From positions 1 through 29,118 of IMG/VR virus record IMGVR_UViG_3300009151_000282: a stretch of 29,118 bases of DNA. One strand, given 5' to 3'. Below the pieces are notes generated by a model, which was not told the DNA's origin, did no database searches, and was given only the letters and a program-made list of their open reading frames with translations. This stretch comes from a virus. The translations under genes were made by a program, and so were the position numbers. This document shows, one piece after another, positions 5,214 through 24,825 of this stretch (position 1 is the first letter of the stretch; each line of letters begins with the position of its first letter).

Positions 5214-5627
5214 TTAGTCTTTAGCAGGAAGTTCTGCTGTTACACTAGTAGGATCTACTTCTAACTTATCTCCTACTTGTTTAAATTTTAAACGTATATT
5301 ATACATAGGTTTACGTGTTTTTGGATCATTATAGACAAACATGTATTCTAAAGCAGTATTAATATCAATACTGTCGTAGTAGTGTTCCAAATCGGCGTTT
5401 AATGCTGCAACTATTTCTGGTGCACCTATTATTGTACCAGTGTTTATATCTTTATCTGTAGCTTCATCGTAGTCTGTTACCTGTATTTTTATATTATCCG
5501 GCACTACAAGGATTTGTGTACCATCCCTTCCTCCATGTTGCACTTCTACTGCTTCATTTAACATCTTAGAGTTAGATGTTAATTTATTCTCTACTAAGAA
5601 TTTTTTTAAATCAAATGTGTTTTCCAT
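5214..5627 (-). CDS. Phage protein with FDLKKFLVENKLT leader (putative packaged protein)
   Basis: 137 residues. No enzymatic motif is recognised. The N-terminus carries FDLKKFLVENKLT (residues 5-17), shared almost base for base with the next upstream gene, and is followed by L23-N-E25/A26. This fits the (I/L)xE|(A/G) site cut by T4-type prohead protease. The rest is a soluble, acidic, probably beta-rich domain (about residues 30-137). It is the last gene before the terminator. By analogy with T4 internal head proteins I infer a capsid-targeting propeptide, so the product may be packaged and perhaps injected. Proteins with such leaders recur in marine T4-like phages, but their function is not known to me. 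Confidence 0.8.
   Translation of the reverse strand: MENTFDLKKFLVENKLTSNSKMLNEAVEVQHGGRDGTQILVVPDNIKIQVTDYDEATDKDINTGTIIGAPEIVAALNADLEHYYDSIDINTALEYMFVYNDPKTRKPMYNIRLKFKQVGDKLEVDPTSVTAELPAKD
5568..5615 (-). repeat. Duplicated leader-coding module, copy 1
   Basis: The bases encoding residues 5-20 of the 137-aa protein nearly match those at 6267-6314 of the upstream gene, including the run GATTTAAAAAAATTC. The bodies of the two proteins are unrelated by eye, so the leader looks like a shuffled or duplicated module. Confidence 0.75.
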
Positions 5628-5651
5628 TTTATTATACTTTTACTATAAGTA

Positions 5652-6323
5652 CTATGCTGCTGCTATTTTGTTTGCTAATCCTACTACTTCTGATGATTTA
5701 AAAGCTGATAATCCACCTTCTAGTCCTTTTCCTATTAAATTGTGTGCTTCTAATGCTTCTGCTCCACTTGATACTGCTGCTGCTACAAGCATTGCTGCAT
5801 ATACACCATGTGCTACTTTATATAATTCAGATGATTCATCATTAGGGTCTTGCTGTCCGTATCTTTTTGGAAAAGCTAGTTTTATCATTCCTCCAATTAC
5901 ATCTATGTACTTATGCTCTAGGTTATGTCCAAATTTCTTAAGAGCATTACCAACTACAGTTCCACTTTTTTTATCTTTCTGGAATAAAGAAGCCATTCCG
6001 TTTACTCCTTTTCCTAATAAGGAAATAATACCTGGTGCTCCTACAATTAATCCTAAAGTCATCGACTCTTCTAGTTGTCCGTCTTGTGCAGATGGTTTAA
6101 TTGTATTTGCTCCTTGTTGTAGTAGAGCTAAAGCTCCATTCAATCCTTGTTGTGCATCTTTATCTGCTACTTGATCATCTGCATTTGGATCTGTAGTAGG
6201 TGCTGGTGCTTGATTCGGTACTGCTGCTTGAGGTGCAGGAGCTACTGGTGCTGCTTCTAGTATTCTAGAGTTATATGTCAGCTTATTCTCTACTAGGAAT
6301 TTTTTTAAATCAAAATTATCCAT
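5652..6323 (-). CDS. Phage protein with FDLKKFLVENKLT leader and hydrophobic segments
   Basis: 223 residues. Residues 4-16 are FDLKKFLVENKLT, followed by I21-L-E23/A24, a good match to a T4-type prohead protease site. A low-complexity Ala/Pro/Gln region follows (about 25-50), then two hydrophobic stretches: near residues 90-105 (LGLIVGAPGIISLLG), and AAMLVAAAVSSGAEAL in the C-terminal third. The second half may therefore associate with membrane or form helical bundles. The ATG overlaps the end of the 41-aa gene by eight bases. It ends TAG, followed in frame by TAC TTA TAG TAA. Function unknown; a packaged or injected protein with membrane affinity is an inference from leader plus hydrophobic segments. 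Confidence 0.8.
   Translation of the reverse strand: MDNFDLKKFLVENKLTYNSRILEAAPVAPAPQAAVPNQAPAPTTDPNADDQVADKDAQQGLNGALALLQQGANTIKPSAQDGQLEESMTLGLIVGAPGIISLLGKGVNGMASLFQKDKKSGTVVGNALKKFGHNLEHKYIDVIGGMIKLAFPKRYGQQDPNDESSELYKVAHGVYAAMLVAAAVSSGAEALEAHNLIGKGLEGGLSAFKSSEVVGLANKIAAA
6267..6314 (-). repeat. Duplicated leader-coding module, copy 2
   Basis: Partner of the module at 5568-5615. It encodes residues 4-19 of the 223-aa protein and differs by only a handful of bases, mostly at third codon positions. Confidence 0.75.
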
Positions 6324-6441
6324 TCTGTAATTTTTTAAGTACTAATTCGTTTTGCTTTATTAAGTTTAGAGTCTTTACTGTTGACTTTCTGCTTTTGTTT
6401 GTTCTAGTTCTTTGTGGTGATGTATGATTTCCTCTTGCCAT
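6316..6441 (-). CDS. Small basic protein (41 aa)
   Basis: A 41-residue frame fills the gap between the kinase-like gene and the 223-aa gene. Its ATG overlaps the upstream TAA as TAATG, the junction used throughout this window. Its TAA lies inside the first codons of the next gene (ATGGATAA). The product begins MARGNHTSPQRTRTNKSRKS and contains about ten Lys/Arg, clustered in the first half, with a possible C-terminal amphipathic helix. Such composition suits a nucleic-acid-binding or DNA-condensing peptide, but no family is recognised. The exact fit at both ends, and the fact that the 117-base gap is otherwise unexplained, are the main support. Confidence 0.65.
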   Translation of the reverse strand: MARGNHTSPQRTRTNKSRKSTVKTLNLIKQNELVLKKLQNG

Positions 6442-6881
6442 TATACGTCTATTATTTTTACGTTTCCTTGTTTATCTTGCATTACATTATCAAGCTTTAT
6501 TTTACCACCTGGTCCTTCTAGGTCAGGATAAATATCTAGCTCGTCTGCTTCTGCCATTATATCGTCAATTGGAATTTCATCTGGATCTGCTGTGTATGGT
6601 TCCAAATCTTCCATTGTAATGATTCCTAATTTTTGATTTATAATTTCTACATCATAAATGTGAACAAAATACTTAGTATCAACTCCTTGTAGTTTTCCTG
6701 CATCTTCTAATTCTTCTGAATCAGTGGTTACTTTTACTACTCTGTTTCCTAATAAAAAAGCTGCACCATAATCACCCGATCCTAAAAACTCACCTCCTTG
6801 TTGTCTTATTTTATCAACTTGTTGTTCGTATTCGGTAGTTGATTGTATTACCTCTTTTATTATTTTGGTAAGGCTTATCAT
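6441..6881 (-). CDS. Minimal protein-kinase-like protein
   Basis: 146 residues. A Gly-rich loop GSGDYG (34-39) is followed by VVKVT with K50, like the ATP-anchoring lysine of kinases. A hinge-like stretch follows (IITMEDLEPY), and the C-terminus reads DNVMQDKQGNVKIIDV, resembling the catalytic-loop Asn (N132) and the metal-binding Asp of a DFG-type motif (D145). The protein stops there, so the usual C-lobe is absent. The HRD-type catalytic Asp expected five residues before N132 is a lysine, so it may be a pseudokinase or a degenerate phage kinase. The N-terminus (ISLTKIIKEVI) resembles the leaders of its neighbours. The gene is joined to both neighbours by TAATG overlaps. The kinase-fold call is by motif only. 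Confidence 0.7.
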   Translation of the reverse strand: MISLTKIIKEVIQSTTEYEQQVDKIRQQGGEFLGSGDYGAAFLLGNRVVKVTTDSEELEDAGKLQGVDTKYFVHIYDVEIINQKLGIITMEDLEPYTADPDEIPIDDIMAEADELDIYPDLEGPGGKIKLDNVMQDKQGNVKIIDV

Positions 6882-7801
6882 TAATCCAATCCTCCCATTG
6901 CTCTAACAGCTGCACCGTGTGCTTCATCGTAAGGAGCACTAAATGATATTGTTTCTCCGTATAGGTCTAATTCAAATTCATTAATTGGAGAATCTTGTAC
7001 TGCTTGTATTGCTTGATTTTCATCTTTGCATACTTGTTGAGTTCCTCTACCACTTGCAATCTTATAATACTTAGCTCCTAAGTTATCTTCGATATACTGT
7101 ATTGCATCATCTTTTGAGTATAGGTCTTTTACTTCTTCATACATAGGTTCTTCACCTCTAGTAATTCTGTCTACATTTTCAGGATTAGCTCTATCCAATA
7201 CATCATTGCCTCTTGTTTCTTGGTCTTTTCCGTGTACTAAGTTCCATAGAATTTCACTAAAATCAGTATCGCTTCCTGTAGTTGTTCCTCCTGCTTTGTA
7301 TTTAGAGTATCCTATTTTATTTAACTCTTCTCTAATTACTTGTCTTAATTGTGATTTTTTCATTGTTTTAATTTCTTGTACTGGTGCTACGTAGTGGTTT
7401 TTGTATTTCTGCTTTAGGTATTCTTCAAATCGTTTATTAATGTCAAAGCTTGGATCTAGAGCAGTGTCATCTGGTATCTTTGATATTGTATTTGCTAATT
7501 GTTGGAAAAATCCATTTTCAACTGTATCATCAACTATTGCTGCTGTTTGATCATCTATATCTAATTTATCTAACCAAGTATTTGTTTTTTGAGTATCTGG
7601 TTTTTTTCCTATTGCTCTAAATATATCGTATGTCTTTTTTGCAGCACCTATTCCTTGCACAACTGATGCTAGCAAACTTACTGCTATGTTTACGCCTTCG
7701 TCCGCTAACACTCCTTTCACATTTTGAAAGATGTTTTGCTTGGTCACTTTGTTAATGATTGCTTTTACATCGCCATATGTTTTTAGCTCAACGTTAGCCA
7801 T
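6881..7801 (-). CDS. Conserved phage virion-associated protein with an internal MKKSQLRQ leader (apparent fusion)
   Basis: 306 residues in two parts. Residues 1-146 start MANVELKTYGDVKAI, include a hydrophobic helix (VNIAVSLLASVVQGIGAA, about 36-53) and the stretch LDIDDQTAAIVDDTVENGF. From memory this resembles a stand-alone family in marine T4-like phages. At residue 147 a new leader begins, MKKSQLRQVIREEL, of the type that starts the neighbouring 105-aa gene, and continues into an acidic C-terminal domain to residue 306. The layout suggests fusion of two genes, or an internal start at 7363 making a second, shorter product. No catalytic motif is seen. The gene begins one base after the 105-aa gene stop and its TAA overlaps the next ATG. 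Confidence 0.78.
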   Translation of the reverse strand: MANVELKTYGDVKAIINKVTKQNIFQNVKGVLADEGVNIAVSLLASVVQGIGAAKKTYDIFRAIGKKPDTQKTNTWLDKLDIDDQTAAIVDDTVENGFFQQLANTISKIPDDTALDPSFDINKRFEEYLKQKYKNHYVAPVQEIKTMKKSQLRQVIREELNKIGYSKYKAGGTTTGSDTDFSEILWNLVHGKDQETRGNDVLDRANPENVDRITRGEEPMYEEVKDLYSKDDAIQYIEDNLGAKYYKIASGRGTQQVCKDENQAIQAVQDSPINEFELDLYGETISFSAPYDEAHGAAVRAMGGLD

Positions 7802-7802
7802 A

Positions 7803-8120
7803 TTATTTCCAGCTTAATTCTTTAAGAGCTTTGTTTATTGTTGCAATAAGTGTTCCATAAGGTACTTTTGTTTTACCTTGTTCTGTTCCTGCACCTGATT
7901 GGATGCCTAATGTAGTAATCCATCCTTTGAATGCTTGCTGCAACTCTGCTACATTATTTATTCTTTTATTTGCATTTGAGATAGTTGTAGAGCTAGTTCT
8001 TGCTTTTTGCAATTGTTTTACATCTGAGCTTACAGGTGCTGTTGCTCCTGGTACTGCTCCAGTTGCTGCAGGTGCTGCTATTGCTTCTTTTATTAGTTTT
8101 CTTAATTCTGATTTTTTCAT
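7803..8120 (-). CDS. Small phage protein with MKKSELRKLIKEA leader
   Basis: 105 residues. It starts MKKSELRKLIKEAIAAP, where I10-K-E12/A13 fits a prohead-protease-type site. This is followed by an Ala/Pro/Gly/Thr-rich linker (13-35) and a C-terminal helical domain (about 36-105) without recognised motifs. If cleaved at E12, the mature product would be about 93 residues. Leaders of this form are common on structural or packaged proteins in marine T4-like phages; function unknown. The start lies after an A-rich stretch (AAAAAATAAAATG) without Shine-Dalgarno, the initiation style of Bacteroidota. Confidence 0.78.
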   Translation of the reverse strand: MKKSELRKLIKEAIAAPAATGAVPGATAPVSSDVKQLQKARTSSTTISNANKRINNVAELQQAFKGWITTLGIQSGAGTEQGKTKVPYGTLIATINKALKELSWK

Positions 8121-8211: not shown

Positions 8212-8481
8212 TTAGAACTCGTGTATTAATATATTTAACTCTCCTGTTCCCTTTATCACCCTATGATAGGTGTCTTTGGGTATAAATATTACGTCTTTTA
8301 ATTGCTGAGGTAATTGATCCTCAAGTTGAAACATCCAGTCTGTTTGTCCTAGTACTTGTACTCTTCGATCCCTTCTGTCTCTGTGCCAAACTAATTCTGC
8401 TTCAGCTATATCCTGTTTGAATTTTCTTTGGATAATGTCAAATGCTTTTTGCTCTTGATATGGTCGACTTTGTTGACTCAT
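8212..8481 (-). CDS. Small cupin-like protein
   Basis: 89 residues. The stretch VWHRDRRDRRVQVL, with H33 and D35, followed by VIFIPKDTYHRVIKGTG with H73, resembles the two short metal-binding motifs of a minimal cupin fold (an acidic/His motif, then the PxxxxH motif). It ends almost immediately after the second motif. Similar segments, from memory, occur in marine T4-like phages either alone or as the tail of a leader-bearing virion protein. A metal site is plausible, but no substrate can be assigned. It lies between the Dps-like gene and a tiny membrane ORF in the same direction. Confidence 0.65.
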   Translation of the reverse strand: MSQQSRPYQEQKAFDIIQRKFKQDIAEAELVWHRDRRDRRVQVLGQTDWMFQLEDQLPQQLKDVIFIPKDTYHRVIKGTGELNILIHEF

Positions 8482-8494
8482 GTCAAATTATGTA

Positions 8495-8863
8495 TTATGC
8501 TAAAAATCTTAATTTGTATTTAGTTGACTCTATTAATTCAACTACATTATCAATTTGATTCTGTAGGTATGAATCTTCAAAGTCTTCTCTCATTACGTGT
8601 ACTAATTCTGCCAATTGTATAAAGTACGTTACTACTTGCATATTGTCCTGGTAGTTTTGTAATGGTAAGTTGCTATAATCTACTAATATGCCATACTTAC
8701 CTTGAAATGTTTCAATTAAACCATCTGTTAATTCCACAACTTCATCGTAATACTTATTTAATGCTTTGTGTTCAGAGTATGAATTTGTTTGTAAGTGAAA
8801 GATATGCACTTGTGTACTTGAGTGAAATAAGCACGATACTAATTTTGTAAAATTCTCTATCAT
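8495..8863 (-). CDS. Dps/ferritin-like helical protein
   Basis: 122 residues, predicted all-helical. The segment HIFHLQTNSYSEHKALNKYY (20-39), followed by the acidic ELTDGLIETFQGKYG (44-58), resembles the first two helices of Dps/ferritin-like four-helix bundles (H20, H23, H32 and E51 as candidate metal ligands). It matches a conserved phage family I recall from T4-like genomes (a DUF in Pfam, possibly DUF5856). A role in protecting or binding packaged DNA is possible but not shown. The gene starts 17 bases after the zinc-ribbon gene, behind a TATTTATATA element, and may head its own transcript. Confidence 0.7.
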   Translation of the reverse strand: MIENFTKLVSCLFHSSTQVHIFHLQTNSYSEHKALNKYYDEVVELTDGLIETFQGKYGILVDYSNLPLQNYQDNMQVVTYFIQLAELVHVMREDFEDSYLQNQIDNVVELIESTKYKLRFLA

Positions 8864-8880: not shown

Positions 8881-9585
8881 TTACCAATATCCACTAAAGT
8901 TCTTTTCTCCTCCTAATGACTTCCAATATCTTCCAATATGACATCCCCAATAGTTTGGTGATAGCCTATTTTTTTCTGTAGCACATTTATGTCTTGCTGC
9001 AAATGCATGTCTTGCTTTTGGATCATCTATCTTAACTGAAAGTCCTGTTGTATCTCCAAAGTTGACTTTCTTTATGTTTTTAGTTTTTGGATCTTTTACA
9101 TATACAAAGAACTTTTTAGAACCTCCTCTATGTGGTTTTCCTAACTCAACATCTTTACCGTGGTACTGTGCTTCATTAAGTGCTTTCCAATCCTCAAGAG
9201 CTTGCATATCGTAAACTCCTCTTACATTATCATATCCACAATTATGGCAAAGCGCTGGGTGAGTGTCCTCAGGTGTTACTTGCCATCTGTGTTTGCATTT
9301 TCTACAAATAACTTCTTCTCCTGGATTTACCATTGGCATGTCTAGTGGTACTGTCTTTCCTTGAAAGCTTCCAAACTCTCCTATATCTGTTTCTTCTAAA
9401 AGAACTCTGTCTGCTTCACATAGTTGCAAATAACCGTCTCTGTGAAGGTTTCTTGCTTCAGTGAACAATTGTAAGAATGCATCGGAAGAATACCTGTAGA
9501 CATTCTCAGATAAAGGGATATCATGTTTTAAATGGTAGTCTAAACCTGGAGTAGTATCAACTAATAAATTAAGTAGTTTTATCAT
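8881..9585 (-). CDS. Zinc-ribbon phage protein with conserved C-terminal YVKDPKT module
   Basis: 234 residues in three parts. Residues 25-85 hold a conserved segment (SENVYRYSSDAFLQLFTEAR ... GSFQGKTVPLDMP). A zinc ribbon follows with C94, C97, C113 and C116 (ICRKCKHRW ... LCHNCGYDN). A C-terminal module (about 157-234) contains FFVYVKDPKT, FGDTTGLSVK and a RHAFAARHKC-like stretch. From memory all three recur in different orders in marine T4-like phages and Bacteroidota phages, so this is a modular virion or packaged protein. No enzyme motif is present; nucleic-acid binding by the ribbon is plausible. It overlaps the GIY-YIG-like gene by 17 bases. Confidence 0.75.
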   Translation of the reverse strand: MIKLLNLLVDTTPGLDYHLKHDIPLSENVYRYSSDAFLQLFTEARNLHRDGYLQLCEADRVLLEETDIGEFGSFQGKTVPLDMPMVNPGEEVICRKCKHRWQVTPEDTHPALCHNCGYDNVRGVYDMQALEDWKALNEAQYHGKDVELGKPHRGGSKKFFVYVKDPKTKNIKKVNFGDTTGLSVKIDDPKARHAFAARHKCATEKNRLSPNYWGCHIGRYWKSLGGEKNFSGYW

Positions 9586-10018
9586 AAAAGTCTTTTTTAA
9601 AATACCTTCCTTCTATGTTATCATTAATATAGTTGGATTGTGGTTCAATTACTTCTTTAATAAATAGAAATTTATTTTCGTAGTAAGTATGCAATTTTTT
9701 ACTTGTAGTAAACATAAGAATTTCTCTTGAGAATTCCGACTGTTTACCTTCTTTCATTAATGCTTTTATTTCTGAGTGGGAGCCATAATATGTTTTCCAG
9801 TCAGATTCTTTTTTGACTATTTTGTATGTCTTAGCTCTTCTGTCTTTTAGTTCAGCTAACTCTTTTTTACCTAAAGGTTTTTTTGTAACAGAAATTAATT
9901 GCTTTTTTCCTAAATACTTTCTACCTGTTGGTATATGTGTTACTTCGTAGATAAACCCGAAGATGTCTTCGGGCATATCTGAAAGTTGATTTATTTGTTT
10001 ATTTTGATATAACCACAT
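9569..10018 (-). CDS. GIY-YIG-like endonuclease
   Basis: 149 residues. The order of motifs matches a variant GIY-YIG nuclease: GFIYEV (21-26), KYLGKK (34-39), W74 and YYGS (77-80), R98 in FSREIL, E114 in TYYENKFL, and N133 in the INDN stretch near the end. This family of short phage proteins is widespread in T4-like phages and may be a stand-alone homing-type endonuclease or a structure-specific nuclease. It lies directly after the tail-fibre gene, a common place for homing endonucleases, although there is no sign of an intron or of disruption here. Catalytic residues appear intact, except that the first Tyr-containing motif is FIY and the second YLG. Confidence 0.65.
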   Translation of the reverse strand: MWLYQNKQINQLSDMPEDIFGFIYEVTHIPTGRKYLGKKQLISVTKKPLGKKELAELKDRRAKTYKIVKKESDWKTYYGSHSEIKALMKEGKQSEFSREILMFTTSKKLHTYYENKFLFIKEVIEPQSNYINDNIEGRYFKKDFYDKTT

Positions 10019-10032
10019 TTTTTATTTTTTTA

Positions 10033-12540
10033 TTAGAATAATGCATTCCAAGTTGTTCCATCATAGTAGTACAATTTGCTTGCTAATGCAGATCCCTGTG
10101 CTACTATCATTCCTTCTGATGCTGGTGAAGGGAATGATGATTGTCTTGCTAATTGTAGTACACTGCTTATTGACACTGACCCTGTTACCTGTACTTGTGA
10201 ACCTGATGCAAATATTAAGTTACTTCTGCTTGCTCCTGTTCCATTTCCAACTATAAAAGCTGATTGTGCTGATGAGGATATATTATACTGTCCAACTACT
10301 GATTGGTAACTACCAGATGCTACTGTTTGGTTTCCTGCTGCATGTGAGTAGCTTCCTAATGCTGTTGTATAATATCCTTCGGCATGTGAGTATGAACCTG
10401 TTGCTATTGTAAAGAATCCCTCTGCATGTGATCCTACTCCACCTGCTACTGTACTATTTCCTTCTGCATGTGAGTAGTTCCCATTTGCATATGTACTATT
10501 TCCTTCAGCATGTGCAAACGATCCTGATGCAGTTGTTCCACTTCCTTCAGCGTGTGATTGATCTCCTTGTGCGTATGTAAGTGATCCTTCTGCATGTGAA
10601 TTTGCACCATTGGCCTGTGTTCCTATTCCTTCTGCATGTGAATAGCTACCAACGGCATATGTTTGAAATCCCTCTGCGTGAGAGCCATACCCTATTGCTA
10701 CTGCTTGGTCTCCTTCAGCATGTGAGGATTGTCCTGATGCAACTGCTGAGTTTCCTTCAGCATGTGAGTTTGGTCCTGATGCTAGTGTGCTAGCTCCTTC
10801 AGCATGTGCTCCTGATCCTGATGCAGTTGTATAGTACCCTTCAGCATGTGAGTAGGAACCTGTTGCTATTGTGAAACTTCCCTCTGCGTGAGAATACTGT
10901 CCATTTGCTTTTGTATTTCCTCCTTCTGCGTGAGCATGTTGTGCTGTCGCTTGAGTACTATATCCTTCTGCATGAGCGTATGTATATGCTATTGAAACAT
11001 ATCCTTCAGCATGTGCAAACGATCCTGATGCTATTGTATTATTTCCTTCTGCGTGGGAGTAGTCTCCTTTTGCGATGCTAAACTCACCTTCTGCATGCGA
11101 GTAGTTTCCTGATGCTGTATTATATAATCCTTCTGCATGAGATCCGTTACCTGATGCTATGTTGTTGCTTCCTATTACTACCGATCCTGTTATTATTACG
11201 TTTCCGTTTCTAATTCCAAGCCATTGAGATGCTGTTAGTGCATATGAAGCTGTTGTAGCATTTGTTGCTGTAGCAATTGTGTATGAAGCTGTTGTAGCAT
11301 ATGAAGCTGTTGTAACATATGATGCTGTACCAAATAGTGATCCTGTAAATCCTTGTGTTGCACTAATACTTCCTGTTACTTGTAATAAGTTACCTGATGC
11401 AAATAATAAGTTTGATCTACCTGCTCCAGCTCCTGTTCCGTTACCTATTATAAATGCTGATTGAGCTGATGATGATATGTTATATTGTCCTATTACTGAC
11501 TGATAACTACCAGATGCTACTGTGTTCCAACCTGCTGCGTGTGAAGCAAGTCCTACTGCTCTTGAGCCTGATCCTTCTGCATGTGAATAATCTCCTGATG
11601 CTGTTGTATTGTATCCTTCTGCATGTGATCCTGTTCCAAATGCCAATGTATTCTGTCCTTCAGCATGTGATGCATATCCAAAAGAAAGTGATCCTGATCC
11701 TTCAGCATGTGAGTAAGCTCCGGATGCTATGGTATATCCTCCTTCTGCATGTGACCATTGTCCTTTTGAGTTTGTATAAGTTCCTTGAGCATGTGAATGA
11801 TCACCTGATGCTGAGGTGTATAGGCCTTCTGCGTGTGAGTTTTCTCCTAAAGCTACTGTCCATTCACCTTCTGCATGGGCAAAATATCCTATTGCTTGAG
11901 TATATTCACCCTCTGCATGTGAACCTTCTCCTATCGCCATTGTACCTTCTCCTTCGGCATGAGTGAAGTATCCTATTGCTTGAGTAGATCCTCCTTCAGC
12001 GTGCGAATAAGATCCAGATGCTGTTGTGCTCTGTCCTTCAGCATGTGATCCTGTTCCAGATGCTGTTCCATTTCCTTCTGCATGGGAATATAGTCCTGTT
12101 GCTTGAGCAGAGTTTCCTTCAGCATGTGAATAAGGTCCTGATGCTATTGAATAGTATCCTTCTGCATGTGAGTATTGGCTTGTTGCTTGTGTGTTTATTC
12201 CTTCGGCATGTGATCCTGTTCCTGAAGAAAGTGATCCTGATCCTTCAGCATGTGAATAAGGTCCTGTTGGTAGTACTCCTATTCCATTTGCAAAAGATCC
12301 TGATACGTCTACTCGTCCTAATCTACTGATTCTATCAATACTTGCTGTCCAAAGTGTATCTCCTCCACCTATGGTGAACGATGCACTTGTTCTTGGTATT
12401 CCTAATGCAGTACTTCCAGTTCTAAAAAAGGTTACTACTGATCCAGTATAGGATGCTGAGTAGAACATTGAAGTAAAGTTTGTATCTACCTGTGCATGAG
12501 ATAGTGCTGATCCTGAGTCTAGTCTTAATGTAATTGCCAT
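10033..12540 (-). CDS. Tail fibre/adhesin with about 38 SHAEG (Hep_Hag/YadA-head) repeats
   Basis: 835 residues. After an N-terminal domain (about 1-88) there are two long arrays of a 14-residue unit, roughly GxYSHAEGxxTxASG, as in the left-handed beta-roll heads of trimeric adhesins such as YadA. The first array has about 18 units and the second about 20. Each array ends in an SHAAG unit followed by the same module (GQYNISSSAQSAFI ... GNGTGA ... RSNL), near residues 340-385 and 741-783. Between them is an ASYATTASY-type linker. The C-terminus (LYYYDGTTWNALF) is a typical fibre tip/trimerisation end. I infer a trimeric host-recognition fibre. It overlaps the 323-aa gene as TAATG. No tail-fibre chaperone is recognised nearby. 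Confidence 0.88.
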   Translation of the reverse strand: MAITLRLDSGSALSHAQVDTNFTSMFYSASYTGSVVTFFRTGSTALGIPRTSASFTIGGGDTLWTASIDRISRLGRVDVSGSFANGIGVLPTGPYSHAEGSGSLSSGTGSHAEGINTQATSQYSHAEGYYSIASGPYSHAEGNSAQATGLYSHAEGNGTASGTGSHAEGQSTTASGSYSHAEGGSTQAIGYFTHAEGEGTMAIGEGSHAEGEYTQAIGYFAHAEGEWTVALGENSHAEGLYTSASGDHSHAQGTYTNSKGQWSHAEGGYTIASGAYSHAEGSGSLSFGYASHAEGQNTLAFGTGSHAEGYNTTASGDYSHAEGSGSRAVGLASHAAGWNTVASGSYQSVIGQYNISSSAQSAFIIGNGTGAGAGRSNLLFASGNLLQVTGSISATQGFTGSLFGTASYVTTASYATTASYTIATATNATTASYALTASQWLGIRNGNVIITGSVVIGSNNIASGNGSHAEGLYNTASGNYSHAEGEFSIAKGDYSHAEGNNTIASGSFAHAEGYVSIAYTYAHAEGYSTQATAQHAHAEGGNTKANGQYSHAEGSFTIATGSYSHAEGYYTTASGSGAHAEGASTLASGPNSHAEGNSAVASGQSSHAEGDQAVAIGYGSHAEGFQTYAVGSYSHAEGIGTQANGANSHAEGSLTYAQGDQSHAEGSGTTASGSFAHAEGNSTYANGNYSHAEGNSTVAGGVGSHAEGFFTIATGSYSHAEGYYTTALGSYSHAAGNQTVASGSYQSVVGQYNISSSAQSAFIVGNGTGASRSNLIFASGSQVQVTGSVSISSVLQLARQSSFPSPASEGMIVAQGSALASKLYYYDGTTWNALF
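10322..11148 (-). repeat. Tandem 42-bp repeats encoding SHAEG units (second array)
   Basis: About 20 imperfect 42-base units, each carrying a core like CCTTCTGCATGTGAG on the plus strand, encode the C-proximal SHAEG array of the fibre. Spacing keeps the reading frame throughout. Confidence 0.85.
11526..12262 (-). repeat. Tandem 42-bp repeats encoding SHAEG units (first array)
   Basis: About 18 imperfect 42-base units encode the N-proximal SHAEG array. Such repeats permit copy-number change by recombination without losing frame. Confidence 0.85.
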
Positions 12541-23951: not shown

Positions 23952-24361
23952 TATTGTTCAAAATTAATTACTACTTGATCTTGTATGTTTGTTTGTGATA
24001 CATCATATGTTATTGCAACTGCTACTGTATTTGTGTCTTCAGTGGCTTTTATTACTAAGTCTCGTATATTTACATCAGGAAACCACTGTGCCATATCTTG
24101 TCTTATTATGTAGGCTATTTGGTCTTTTGTGTCTGTTGTTATTTGTTCAAAAAGCATCAATCTTAACCCTGCTCCAAAACCTGGATTGAGAAATCTTTCA
24201 CCTTTTTCTGTTAGAAAATAGTTGATTATATTAGACTTTAGTGCATCTTTTGTTGTATAAGTAGATTCAAAGACTGCTCTAGATGTAAACGGTAGTTTTA
24301 CTCCTACTGCTTTTCTAGGTTGTAGATCTAGTGGATGTATTTTTTGTACATTAAATGCCAT
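23951..24361 (-). CDS. 25: Baseplate wedge protein gp25-like
   Basis: 136 residues, the usual length of the GPW/gp25 family. Recognisable are the N-terminal AVGVKLPF (18-25), the helix LKSNIINYFLTEKGERFLNP (41-60) and GFGAGLRLMLFE (61-72), the standard signature around the conserved EKGER/NPxFG turn. In T4 this lysozyme-like-fold protein joins gp6 and gp53 in the inner wedge and primes sheath assembly. It lies between the 154-aa gene and the gp6-like gene with TAATG junctions at both ends, the normal T4-like order gp25 then gp6. Confidence 0.93.
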   Translation of the reverse strand: MAFNVQKIHPLDLQPRKAVGVKLPFTSRAVFESTYTTKDALKSNIINYFLTEKGERFLNPGFGAGLRLMLFEQITTDTKDQIAYIIRQDMAQWFPDVNIRDLVIKATEDTNTVAVAITYDVSQTNIQDQVVINFEQ

Positions 24362-24825
24362 TATGCTCCAAATCTTTGTTTATCTTTCTCATTAGATGCT
24401 TTATAAATTGCACCTGCTTTTTTTATAAAATCAAATTGTGAAATATCTAGCCCTGGTTCAGGACTTGGTCTAAATTGATCTTCTGCTAATAGTGCTTCTA
24501 ATCCTGTTGATTGCATTCCTAGACCTGTTGCTTGTACCATGTCCGAAGTTGCACTTACTAAACTTCTATATTCTCCCTGAGTCATTGAGTACTTTGTTTC
24601 ATTCATCAAGTCTGCAATTGGATCTCCTGTTGGTATAGGTTTAGCTATTACTGGTTTGTATTCTTCGTACTTTGTCACAGCGGGTTTTGATTCTCTATAT
24701 TCAGATACAACCTCTGTTGGTACTTTTGCAGAGTTTGCTCCTTCAGATAGAATTGTTTCTAATTCTTCACGAACTGCTTCTTTTACTGCTTCTTTAATTA
24801 ATTTTTTTAATAAATCTAACTTCAT
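24361..24825 (-). CDS. Phage protein with LLKKLIKEAVKEAV amphipathic leader
   Basis: 154 residues. The N-terminus (residues 2-23) is a strongly amphipathic Lys/Glu/Ala/Leu helix with I10-K-E12/A13 and a later L-S-E-G site, like the leaders of the small genes between 5214 and 8120. It is followed by a flexible, Pro/Glu/Lys-rich middle (about 35-70) and a helical C-terminal part. It lies between the 260-aa gene and gp25, so it is probably a baseplate or hub component rather than a head protein, which argues that this type of leader is not exclusive to head targeting. A TATTTATTAATA element abuts the ATG. No enzyme motif is present. Confidence 0.75.
   Translation of the reverse strand: MKLDLLKKLIKEAVKEAVREELETILSEGANSAKVPTEVVSEYRESKPAVTKYEEYKPVIAKPIPTGDPIADLMNETKYSMTQGEYRSLVSATSDMVQATGLGMQSTGLEALLAEDQFRPSPEPGLDISQFDFIKKAGAIYKASNEKDKQRFGA

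Follow-up and report, generated by a model that had tools for sequence, protein, structure and literature searches.

The window analysed here is a 29,118-base fragment of an uncultured T4-like phage (IMG/VR record IMGVR_UViG_3300009151_000282), in which several unrelated proteins start with short leader peptides that end in a glutamate. We consider it likely, with a probability of about 0.8, that these leaders are capsid-targeting propeptides of the T4 type which form a new sequence family and are carried by packaged cargo proteins. The comparative evidence given below was computed directly, while cleavage, packaging and injection would follow from the analogy with T4. The observation of the original prediction, that leaders with a cleavage site of the T4 gp21 type stand at the start of proteins in this block, is confirmed, and every leader site named in it is present in the sequence on the minus strand. 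The likeness to gp21-cut propeptides is borne out by the motif logo and, in relatives, by the protease, the sites of major capsid protein (MCP) and scaffold, the position in the prohead operon, leader swaps and site depletion; the further interpretation as propeptides of a cargo is partly supported. A phage attacks first with the proteins that it injects, and to our knowledge these cannot be recognised from sequence outside the T4-like coliphages, the phiKZ-like phages and a few others.

The evidence is carried mainly by one family of leaders, which is called FDLKK here. The protein of 137 amino acids (aa; 5214..5627, minus strand) starts with MENTFDLKKFLVENKLTSNSKMLNE25↓A (residues 1-25, 5553..5627; the arrow marks the predicted cut, LNE25↓A) and the 223-aa protein (5652..6323, minus strand) with MDNFDLKKFLVENKLTYNSRILE23↓A (residues 1-23, 6255..6323; predicted cut ILE23↓A). 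These two have one homologous peptide ahead of unrelated bodies, and the leader of the 105-aa protein, which had been grouped with them, belongs to another class. The consensus M(D/E)N(T)FDLKK(F/Y)LVENKLTxNSxx(L/I)xE recurs in T4-like phages related to immuto. The leader of the 223-aa protein as query gave 67 loci, and an alignment of leader variants gave 78 loci (one overlapping the first set) together with one contig of a metagenome-assembled genome. In this way 150 leader proteins with 144 distinct leaders were collected, and their bodies fall into 73 clusters without detectable mutual similarity (blastp, 1e-3). The sole cultured carriers found in the phage collection were the Flavobacterium phages immuto (genus Immutovirus); their baseplate wedge protein shares 66% identity with that of the window. 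A literature search found no paper on the FDLKK leader and none on the virion proteomics of immuto.

The conserved columns are F-[DN]-L-K-K-[FY]-L-V-E-N-K-L-T-x-N-S-[RK], then [LMI]-L-x-E, then nothing, so that the last conserved element is precisely [LIVM]xE, at which the T4 protease gp21 cleaves. When the 144 leaders are aligned on their last E, P1 is E in 135, P3 is L in 92, I in 25, V in 12 and M in 6, P2 is free, and P1' is A (36), E (26), G (16), N (13), V (12), D (10) or others. The information content is 3.4 bits at P1, 0.7 at P1' and about 0.2 beyond. Alanine at P1', which the original prediction had written into the motif, is therefore not a part of it, and P1' is also variable in the MCPs of the relatives. 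The E was required by the leader search, its place was not (offset 20 in most leaders, 19 in most of the others), and [LIVM]xE stands in the expected place in 133 of the 144 leaders against a mean of 39.7 and a maximum of 56 when residues were shuffled within leader tails. At conserved leader columns the codons vary, for most residues, about as much as those of the bodies, which indicates that selection acts on the peptide and that the conservation is at the protein level. An element ATTTATAACTAAAACAAAAC, which may be a promoter or translation start region common to these genes, lies 20 bases upstream of many FDLKKYLVENKVTTNS leader genes of one lineage (L012, L015, L020, L025, L027, L034, L042 and others). 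Some large leader proteins have a second leader copy, internal or in the C-terminal half (G001:17022-18308, G004:136406-137272, L152, L157, L198, L200); those of G001 and G004 adjoin the terminase, and the second copy of G001 has LxE on both sides (LQE↓GAFDLRKFLAENKITANSRLLKE↓E). Such a copy is possibly a bivalent core linker or a fused cargo.

The spacing of the T4 signal is found in these leaders and in shorter ones. The T4 protease gp21 cleaves behind the Glu of L/I-x-E without any demand at P1', and the first 10 residues of IPIII suffice, targeting depending on positions 4 and 7 and processing on 8 and 10 (PMC9026906). Taking the E of IPIII (MKTYQEFIAE) as zero, hydrophobic residues stand at -6, -3 and -2, and the same spacing is seen in the leader MISLTKIIKE of the kinase-like protein, in the 105-aa leader MKKSELRKLIKE and in LKKFLVE, the core of the long leader. 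MISLTKIIKE and the MIKL-class leaders fit the T4 targeting and processing positions exactly, and the FDLKK core has this spacing relative to its E. Five of the 30 window proteins have a pattern of hydrophobic residues at -6 and -3 and L/I/V at -2, then xE, all within 17 aa; the interior-position rate is 0.022 (binomial P 5e-4). The window shows this N-terminal enrichment at 7.4-fold, T4 at 2.7-fold (15 matches, including IPII, IPIII, gp24, gp2 and Alt) and six relatives at 2.3 to 6.9-fold, and the pattern is at background in the control phages crAss001 (0.85) and phi14:2 (1.25); in five large genomes pooled, 80 of 992 proteins have it, the comparison rate being 0.024. The T4-like 10-aa leaders seen are packed most densely at G006:136677-140009 (minus strand), where five genes in a run of six begin MIK(L/F)xx(I/L)LxE. 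A further common N-terminus, (K)KQILSEQF(K/R)RMQKLAGI(I)TE↓S, was noticed at L083:25061, L085:11675, G010:97461 and L044:3057 and is perhaps another leader class; the observed/expected ratio (O/E) of the protease motif in its bodies is 0.93.

The comparison with the MCP cleavage site and the prohead protease, which had been proposed as a check, was run in relatives, where a protease of the gp21 type is present and sites of this specificity recur in MCP and scaffold. The protease (PF03420) was detected in 17 distinct leader-bearing contigs and in every leader contig having a detected T4-type portal or MCP; three protease-less contigs were re-tested with the portal model and the portal was absent there too. 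When the MCPs of six relatives are compared with T4 gp23, LTE↓A aligns with VSE↓A, VIE↓Q, IVE↓T and VTE↓Q, so the capsid protein shares with the leaders a permissive P1' and V at P3. The scaffolds of the relatives start like T4 gp22, with ..AIAE↓A (KQAIAE↓A) or ..AIADA. In the prohead operons of L184, L196 and L180 a core protein (MxTLQEKYN or similar) comes first, followed by an FDLKK leader protein, the protease, a second leader protein where there is one, and the scaffold. The place between protease and scaffold is taken in L184 by a 223-aa family member whose leader is MKLSDVILE↓S. Immuto has two leader genes immediately upstream of its terminase and another next to the primase, in a block syntenic to that of the window.

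Homologous bodies were found behind different leaders, with FDLKK replaced by NFDMHQW, KKSEL or MKLSELILE at or near the predicted cut. One body, EITKDSPSF..., occurs on two contigs at 87% identity, behind FDLKK...SKILKE in L173 and, next to the protease, behind NFDMHQWRANFLKKVLKE in L069, the swap falling exactly at the predicted cut. In the 223-aa family three leader classes stand on the same body, namely FDLKK, MKKSELVKLIKE (immuto, L126) and MKLSELILE (L195, L184).

Bodies that meet the protease and survive it are expected to avoid [LI]xE. In the FDLKK bodies (71 cluster representatives) 90 such sites were observed against 122.5 expected by shuffling, an O/E of 0.735; the average for length-matched proteins from these phages is 1.19, and no random set out of 5000 came down to the value of the bodies. 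Depletion is not seen for the similarly shaped control motifs [LI]xD, [LI]xK, Ex[LI] and [LI]E, and it is mild for [VFM]xE. The motif is absent from T4 IPII and IPIII and enriched in scaffold (1.53) and core (1.63) proteins (T4 gp22 2.7, gp68 2.5). From these sequence statistics the FDLKK bodies are predicted to survive the protease, and depletion of [LI]xE would separate packaged cargo from degraded core. Among short-leader families, depletion was found in the KKS-led GYSKY family (0.32) and in the kinase family (0.77).

Within the window the case for cargo propeptides is strong for the 137-aa protein, the 223-aa protein, the kinase-like protein and the second half of the 306-aa open reading frame (ORF), and weaker for the 105-aa protein. 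The 137-aa body, a candidate cargo, is without recognised family and has no [LI]xE behind residue 25. The 223-aa protein has a second predicted cut, L84-E85-E86↓S (6066..6074, minus strand), directly before a hydrophobic helical domain (residues 87-223, 5655..6065, minus strand), which is the predicted mature product; E86 is the only invariant residue of this family (18 relatives). Among 33 leader proteins with a hydrophobic segment, which are related and not independent sequences, [LI]xE[GAS] precedes that segment in 19, against 4.5 by shuffling.

The 146-aa kinase-like protein (6441..6881, minus strand) begins with the 10-aa leader MISLTKIIKE10↓V (6852..6881, minus strand), of T4 length and spacing, behind which the window copy has no [LI]xE; E10 is invariant in homologs down to 29% identity. 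K50, E59, N132 and D145 are invariant in 5 homologs and follow the order of the catalytic Lys, Glu, Asn and Asp of kinases. No Pfam hit was obtained for this protein, a PDB profile hit is weak (E 0.31), and the structure model, from whose input alignments (as for the other models) immuto rows were left out, has a low mean predicted local distance difference test score (pLDDT 57.6) with kinases as the top but weak Foldseek hits (E 0.04 to 0.15). A kinase fold was dropped as a claim because the model confidence is too low. In the 306-aa ORF (6881..7801, minus strand) a 146-aa upstream part is fused to a module that relatives encode separately; since homologs start at M147, the ORF is a fusion whose second module bears a KKS-class leader (residues 147-158, MKKSQLRQVIRE↓E, 7328..7363, minus strand). 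What had been described as an internal site is thus present, and is really the N-terminal leader of the fused module. The family of this module is strongly site-depleted (0.32), and its immuto copy has K at P1. The 105-aa protein (7803..8120, minus strand) has the KKS-class leader MKKSELRKLIKE12↓A (8085..8120, minus strand), and no homologs of it were found in six relatives.

A 234-aa precursor (8881..9585, minus strand), missed in the original prediction, consists of a leader-like MIKLLNLLVD, an N-terminal part rich in protease sites and a basic C-terminal domain. Its D may be compared with a T4 leader having Asp at the P1 position, which still targets and stays uncut (PMC9026906). Homologs have 6 to 11 [LI]xE sites followed by [LIV]xE↓A in 7 of 7, which in the window is the predicted cut L136-N137-E138↓A (9172..9180, minus strand). 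The predicted mature C-terminal part (8884..9171, minus strand) holds an 86-aa GKPxRGG domain of net charge +13 without [LI]xE; in homologs the charge is +13 to +20 with 0 or 1 sites. The basic GKPxRGGxKKFxVY domain (phrog_7595, of unknown function) occurs also in pelagiphages and in Roseobacter and Methylophilales phages and is a candidate DNA-binding internal protein.

The neighbouring cupin-like (8212-8481) and Dps-like (8495-8863; PF19174/phrog_858, a family name also given to T4 rI.-1) proteins, which had been suggested as further cargo, are both rejected, as neither has a leader. They have 2 and 3 internal [LI]xE sites respectively, and the cupin-like IAE↓A does not recur in the homolog (DVEEEELVWHRD). 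The 234-aa gene is adjoined, in close relatives too, by that of a 149-aa protein with a GIY-YIG-like motif GFIYEVTHIPTGRKYLGKKQL (9569-10018, minus strand), and then comes an 835-aa tail fibre-like protein with YadA-head SHAEG repeats (10033-12540, minus strand; PF05658).

By analogy with T4, the N-terminal peptide would dock the precursor onto the scaffold core during prohead assembly and a gp21-type (S77) prohead protease would remove it by cutting after [L/I/V]-x-E. Some precursors may be cut again ahead of the functional domain, as predicted at E86 of the 223-aa and E138 of the 234-aa protein. The bodies, surviving through motif avoidance, would stay in the DNA-filled head as in T4 and be ejected into the Bacteroidota host at infection. 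The segments 5214-8120 and 8881-9585 would then be a cargo cassette of hydrophobic helical, kinase-like and small proteins and a very basic domain.

Other explanations of the leaders have to be weighed against this one. The leader proteins may be core or scaffold components of the prohead, like T4 gp67 and gp68, which are targeted, cleaved and expelled and never injected. Several of them do adjoin the protease in the prohead operon, some of their body domains occur also inside the MRTLQEKYN core protein, and the 234-aa precursor has its site-rich N-terminal part; yet core and scaffold are enriched in [LI]xE where FDLKK bodies are depleted, and a sigma factor and an HD-domain protein would be odd in a scaffold, so this account is unlikely. 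It is very improbable that the leader is an uncleaved docking tag whose conservation stops at LxE as the end of a helix. FDLKKFLVE is indeed predicted helical in the 223-aa model (at low confidence) and P1' is hardly constrained, but conserved P3 and P1 around a free P2 are the exact gp21 pattern, the motif is specifically avoided downstream, and second conserved [LIV]xE sites stand ahead of mature domains.

A cassette at the DNA level, a promoter or recombination site copied between genes whose peptide has no function, would agree with the upstream element common to many leader genes of one lineage and with the bias of early Leu/Val codons to TTA/GTA. However, synonymous codons at conserved D, K, E and N, and at L of offsets 11, 17 and 18, vary at about the body level, the upstream DNA of the two FDLKK genes of the window differs, and homologous bodies bear three other peptide classes in place of the leader; the synonymous variation and the swaps rule this out but for a minimal remaining chance. 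Somewhat unlikely is the idea that the FDLKK class alone is real and that the KKS and MIKL leaders are no more than amphipathic N-terminal helices of an ordinary kind in which LxE occurs by chance. Their bodies lack overall depletion and a baseplate-block protein has such an N-terminus, but the T4-like spacing is enriched 2 to 7-fold and not in control phages, KKS and MKLSELILE leaders substitute for FDLKK on homologous bodies, E10 is invariant in the kinase family, and the GYSKY family is strongly depleted.

Several points weigh against capsid-targeting propeptides on packaged cargo. The 29,118 bases contain no protease or capsid gene, for which reason the idea was checked in relatives instead; the leader-bearing sequences are phylogenetically related, so their counts are not independent; and 9 of the 144 FDLKK leaders are without a cleavage site. 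The KKS-class and MIKL-class bodies show O/E of 1.01 and 1.14, values which rule them out as uniformly protected cargo and mean that these classes are mixed or partly false. Some leader proteins of the prohead operon could be core components and not injected cargo. A 154-aa protein with the leader-like MKLDLLKKLIKE↓A (24361..24825, minus strand) lies among baseplate genes in several relatives too, and shows no site depletion; for both reasons it is treated with caution and is probably not head cargo. The caution already raised over this gene holds against the short KKLIKE-type leader and does not reach the FDLKK leader.

If the leaders do mark packaged cargo, they give a direct list of candidate injected effectors in uncultured phages, in 73 body groups, and allow a simple test in the cultured phage immuto; injected effectors could then be read directly from metagenomes. 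Most leader-borne bodies gave no family match. An ECF-type sigma-70 factor in an immuto-like contig (L056:8509-9105, plus strand; PF08281 53.5 bits, PF04542 29.1 bits) has an FDLKK leader ending LVE↓S and lies directly behind a second kinase-like gene (L056:7889) with the 10-aa leader MIKLLDILRE. It is a candidate packaged sigma factor on the strength of its sequence, and a search of viral contigs found no second leader-bearing one, leaving one case, on one fragment. If packaged, such a factor would redirect the transcription of the host ahead of any phage gene expression. An HD-domain protein stands behind a leader at L171:1800, and in immuto a leader-like N-terminus of another kind precedes a 5'-nucleotidase domain. 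Uncultured T4-like phages of Bacteroidota may have a general injection system in which interchangeable leader classes address dozens of unrelated proteins (ECF-like sigma factor, HD-domain, kinase-like, membrane-active) into the head for delivery, an extension which we put at slightly less than an even chance. The motif-avoidance statistic offers a general, experiment-free way to tell cargo from degraded core proteins.

Among known systems, the phiKZ/SPN3US-type giant phages have a related protease cutting after Glu, redundant cut sites and ejected proteins, and SPN3US gp53 and gp54 have identical N-termini on diverged proteins (PMC5694885). Their sites are A/S-x-E and their propeptides mostly longer than 100 aa, features which the present leaders lack, having L/I/V-x-E (M also at P3) and 9-25 aa. 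The T4 core proteins gp67, gp68 and gp22 are similar in their operon place beside the protease, and the 234-aa precursor and the core proteins are likewise rich in [LI]xE, whereas the FDLKK bodies are site-depleted. The nearest parallel is the capsid-targeting sequence of T4 IPI, IPII, IPIII and Alt, cut by gp21: in both systems a short N-terminal peptide ending in [LI]xE stands on unrelated proteins with few or no internal sites in their bodies, protease family, portal and capsid are the same, and the short class has the 10-aa length with hydrophobic residues at 4, 7 and 8 and E10. Targets are known for just three T4 internal proteins, IP1, IP2 and IP3, and are type IV restriction enzymes (PMC12373910). 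The FDLKK leader differs from the T4 signal in sequence and in its length of about 24 aa, made up of a core FDLKKFLVE resembling the T4 signal and a second site NKLTxNSxxLxE, and the present phages differ from T4 in having several interchangeable leader classes per genome, internal and C-terminal copies, and far more cargo families.

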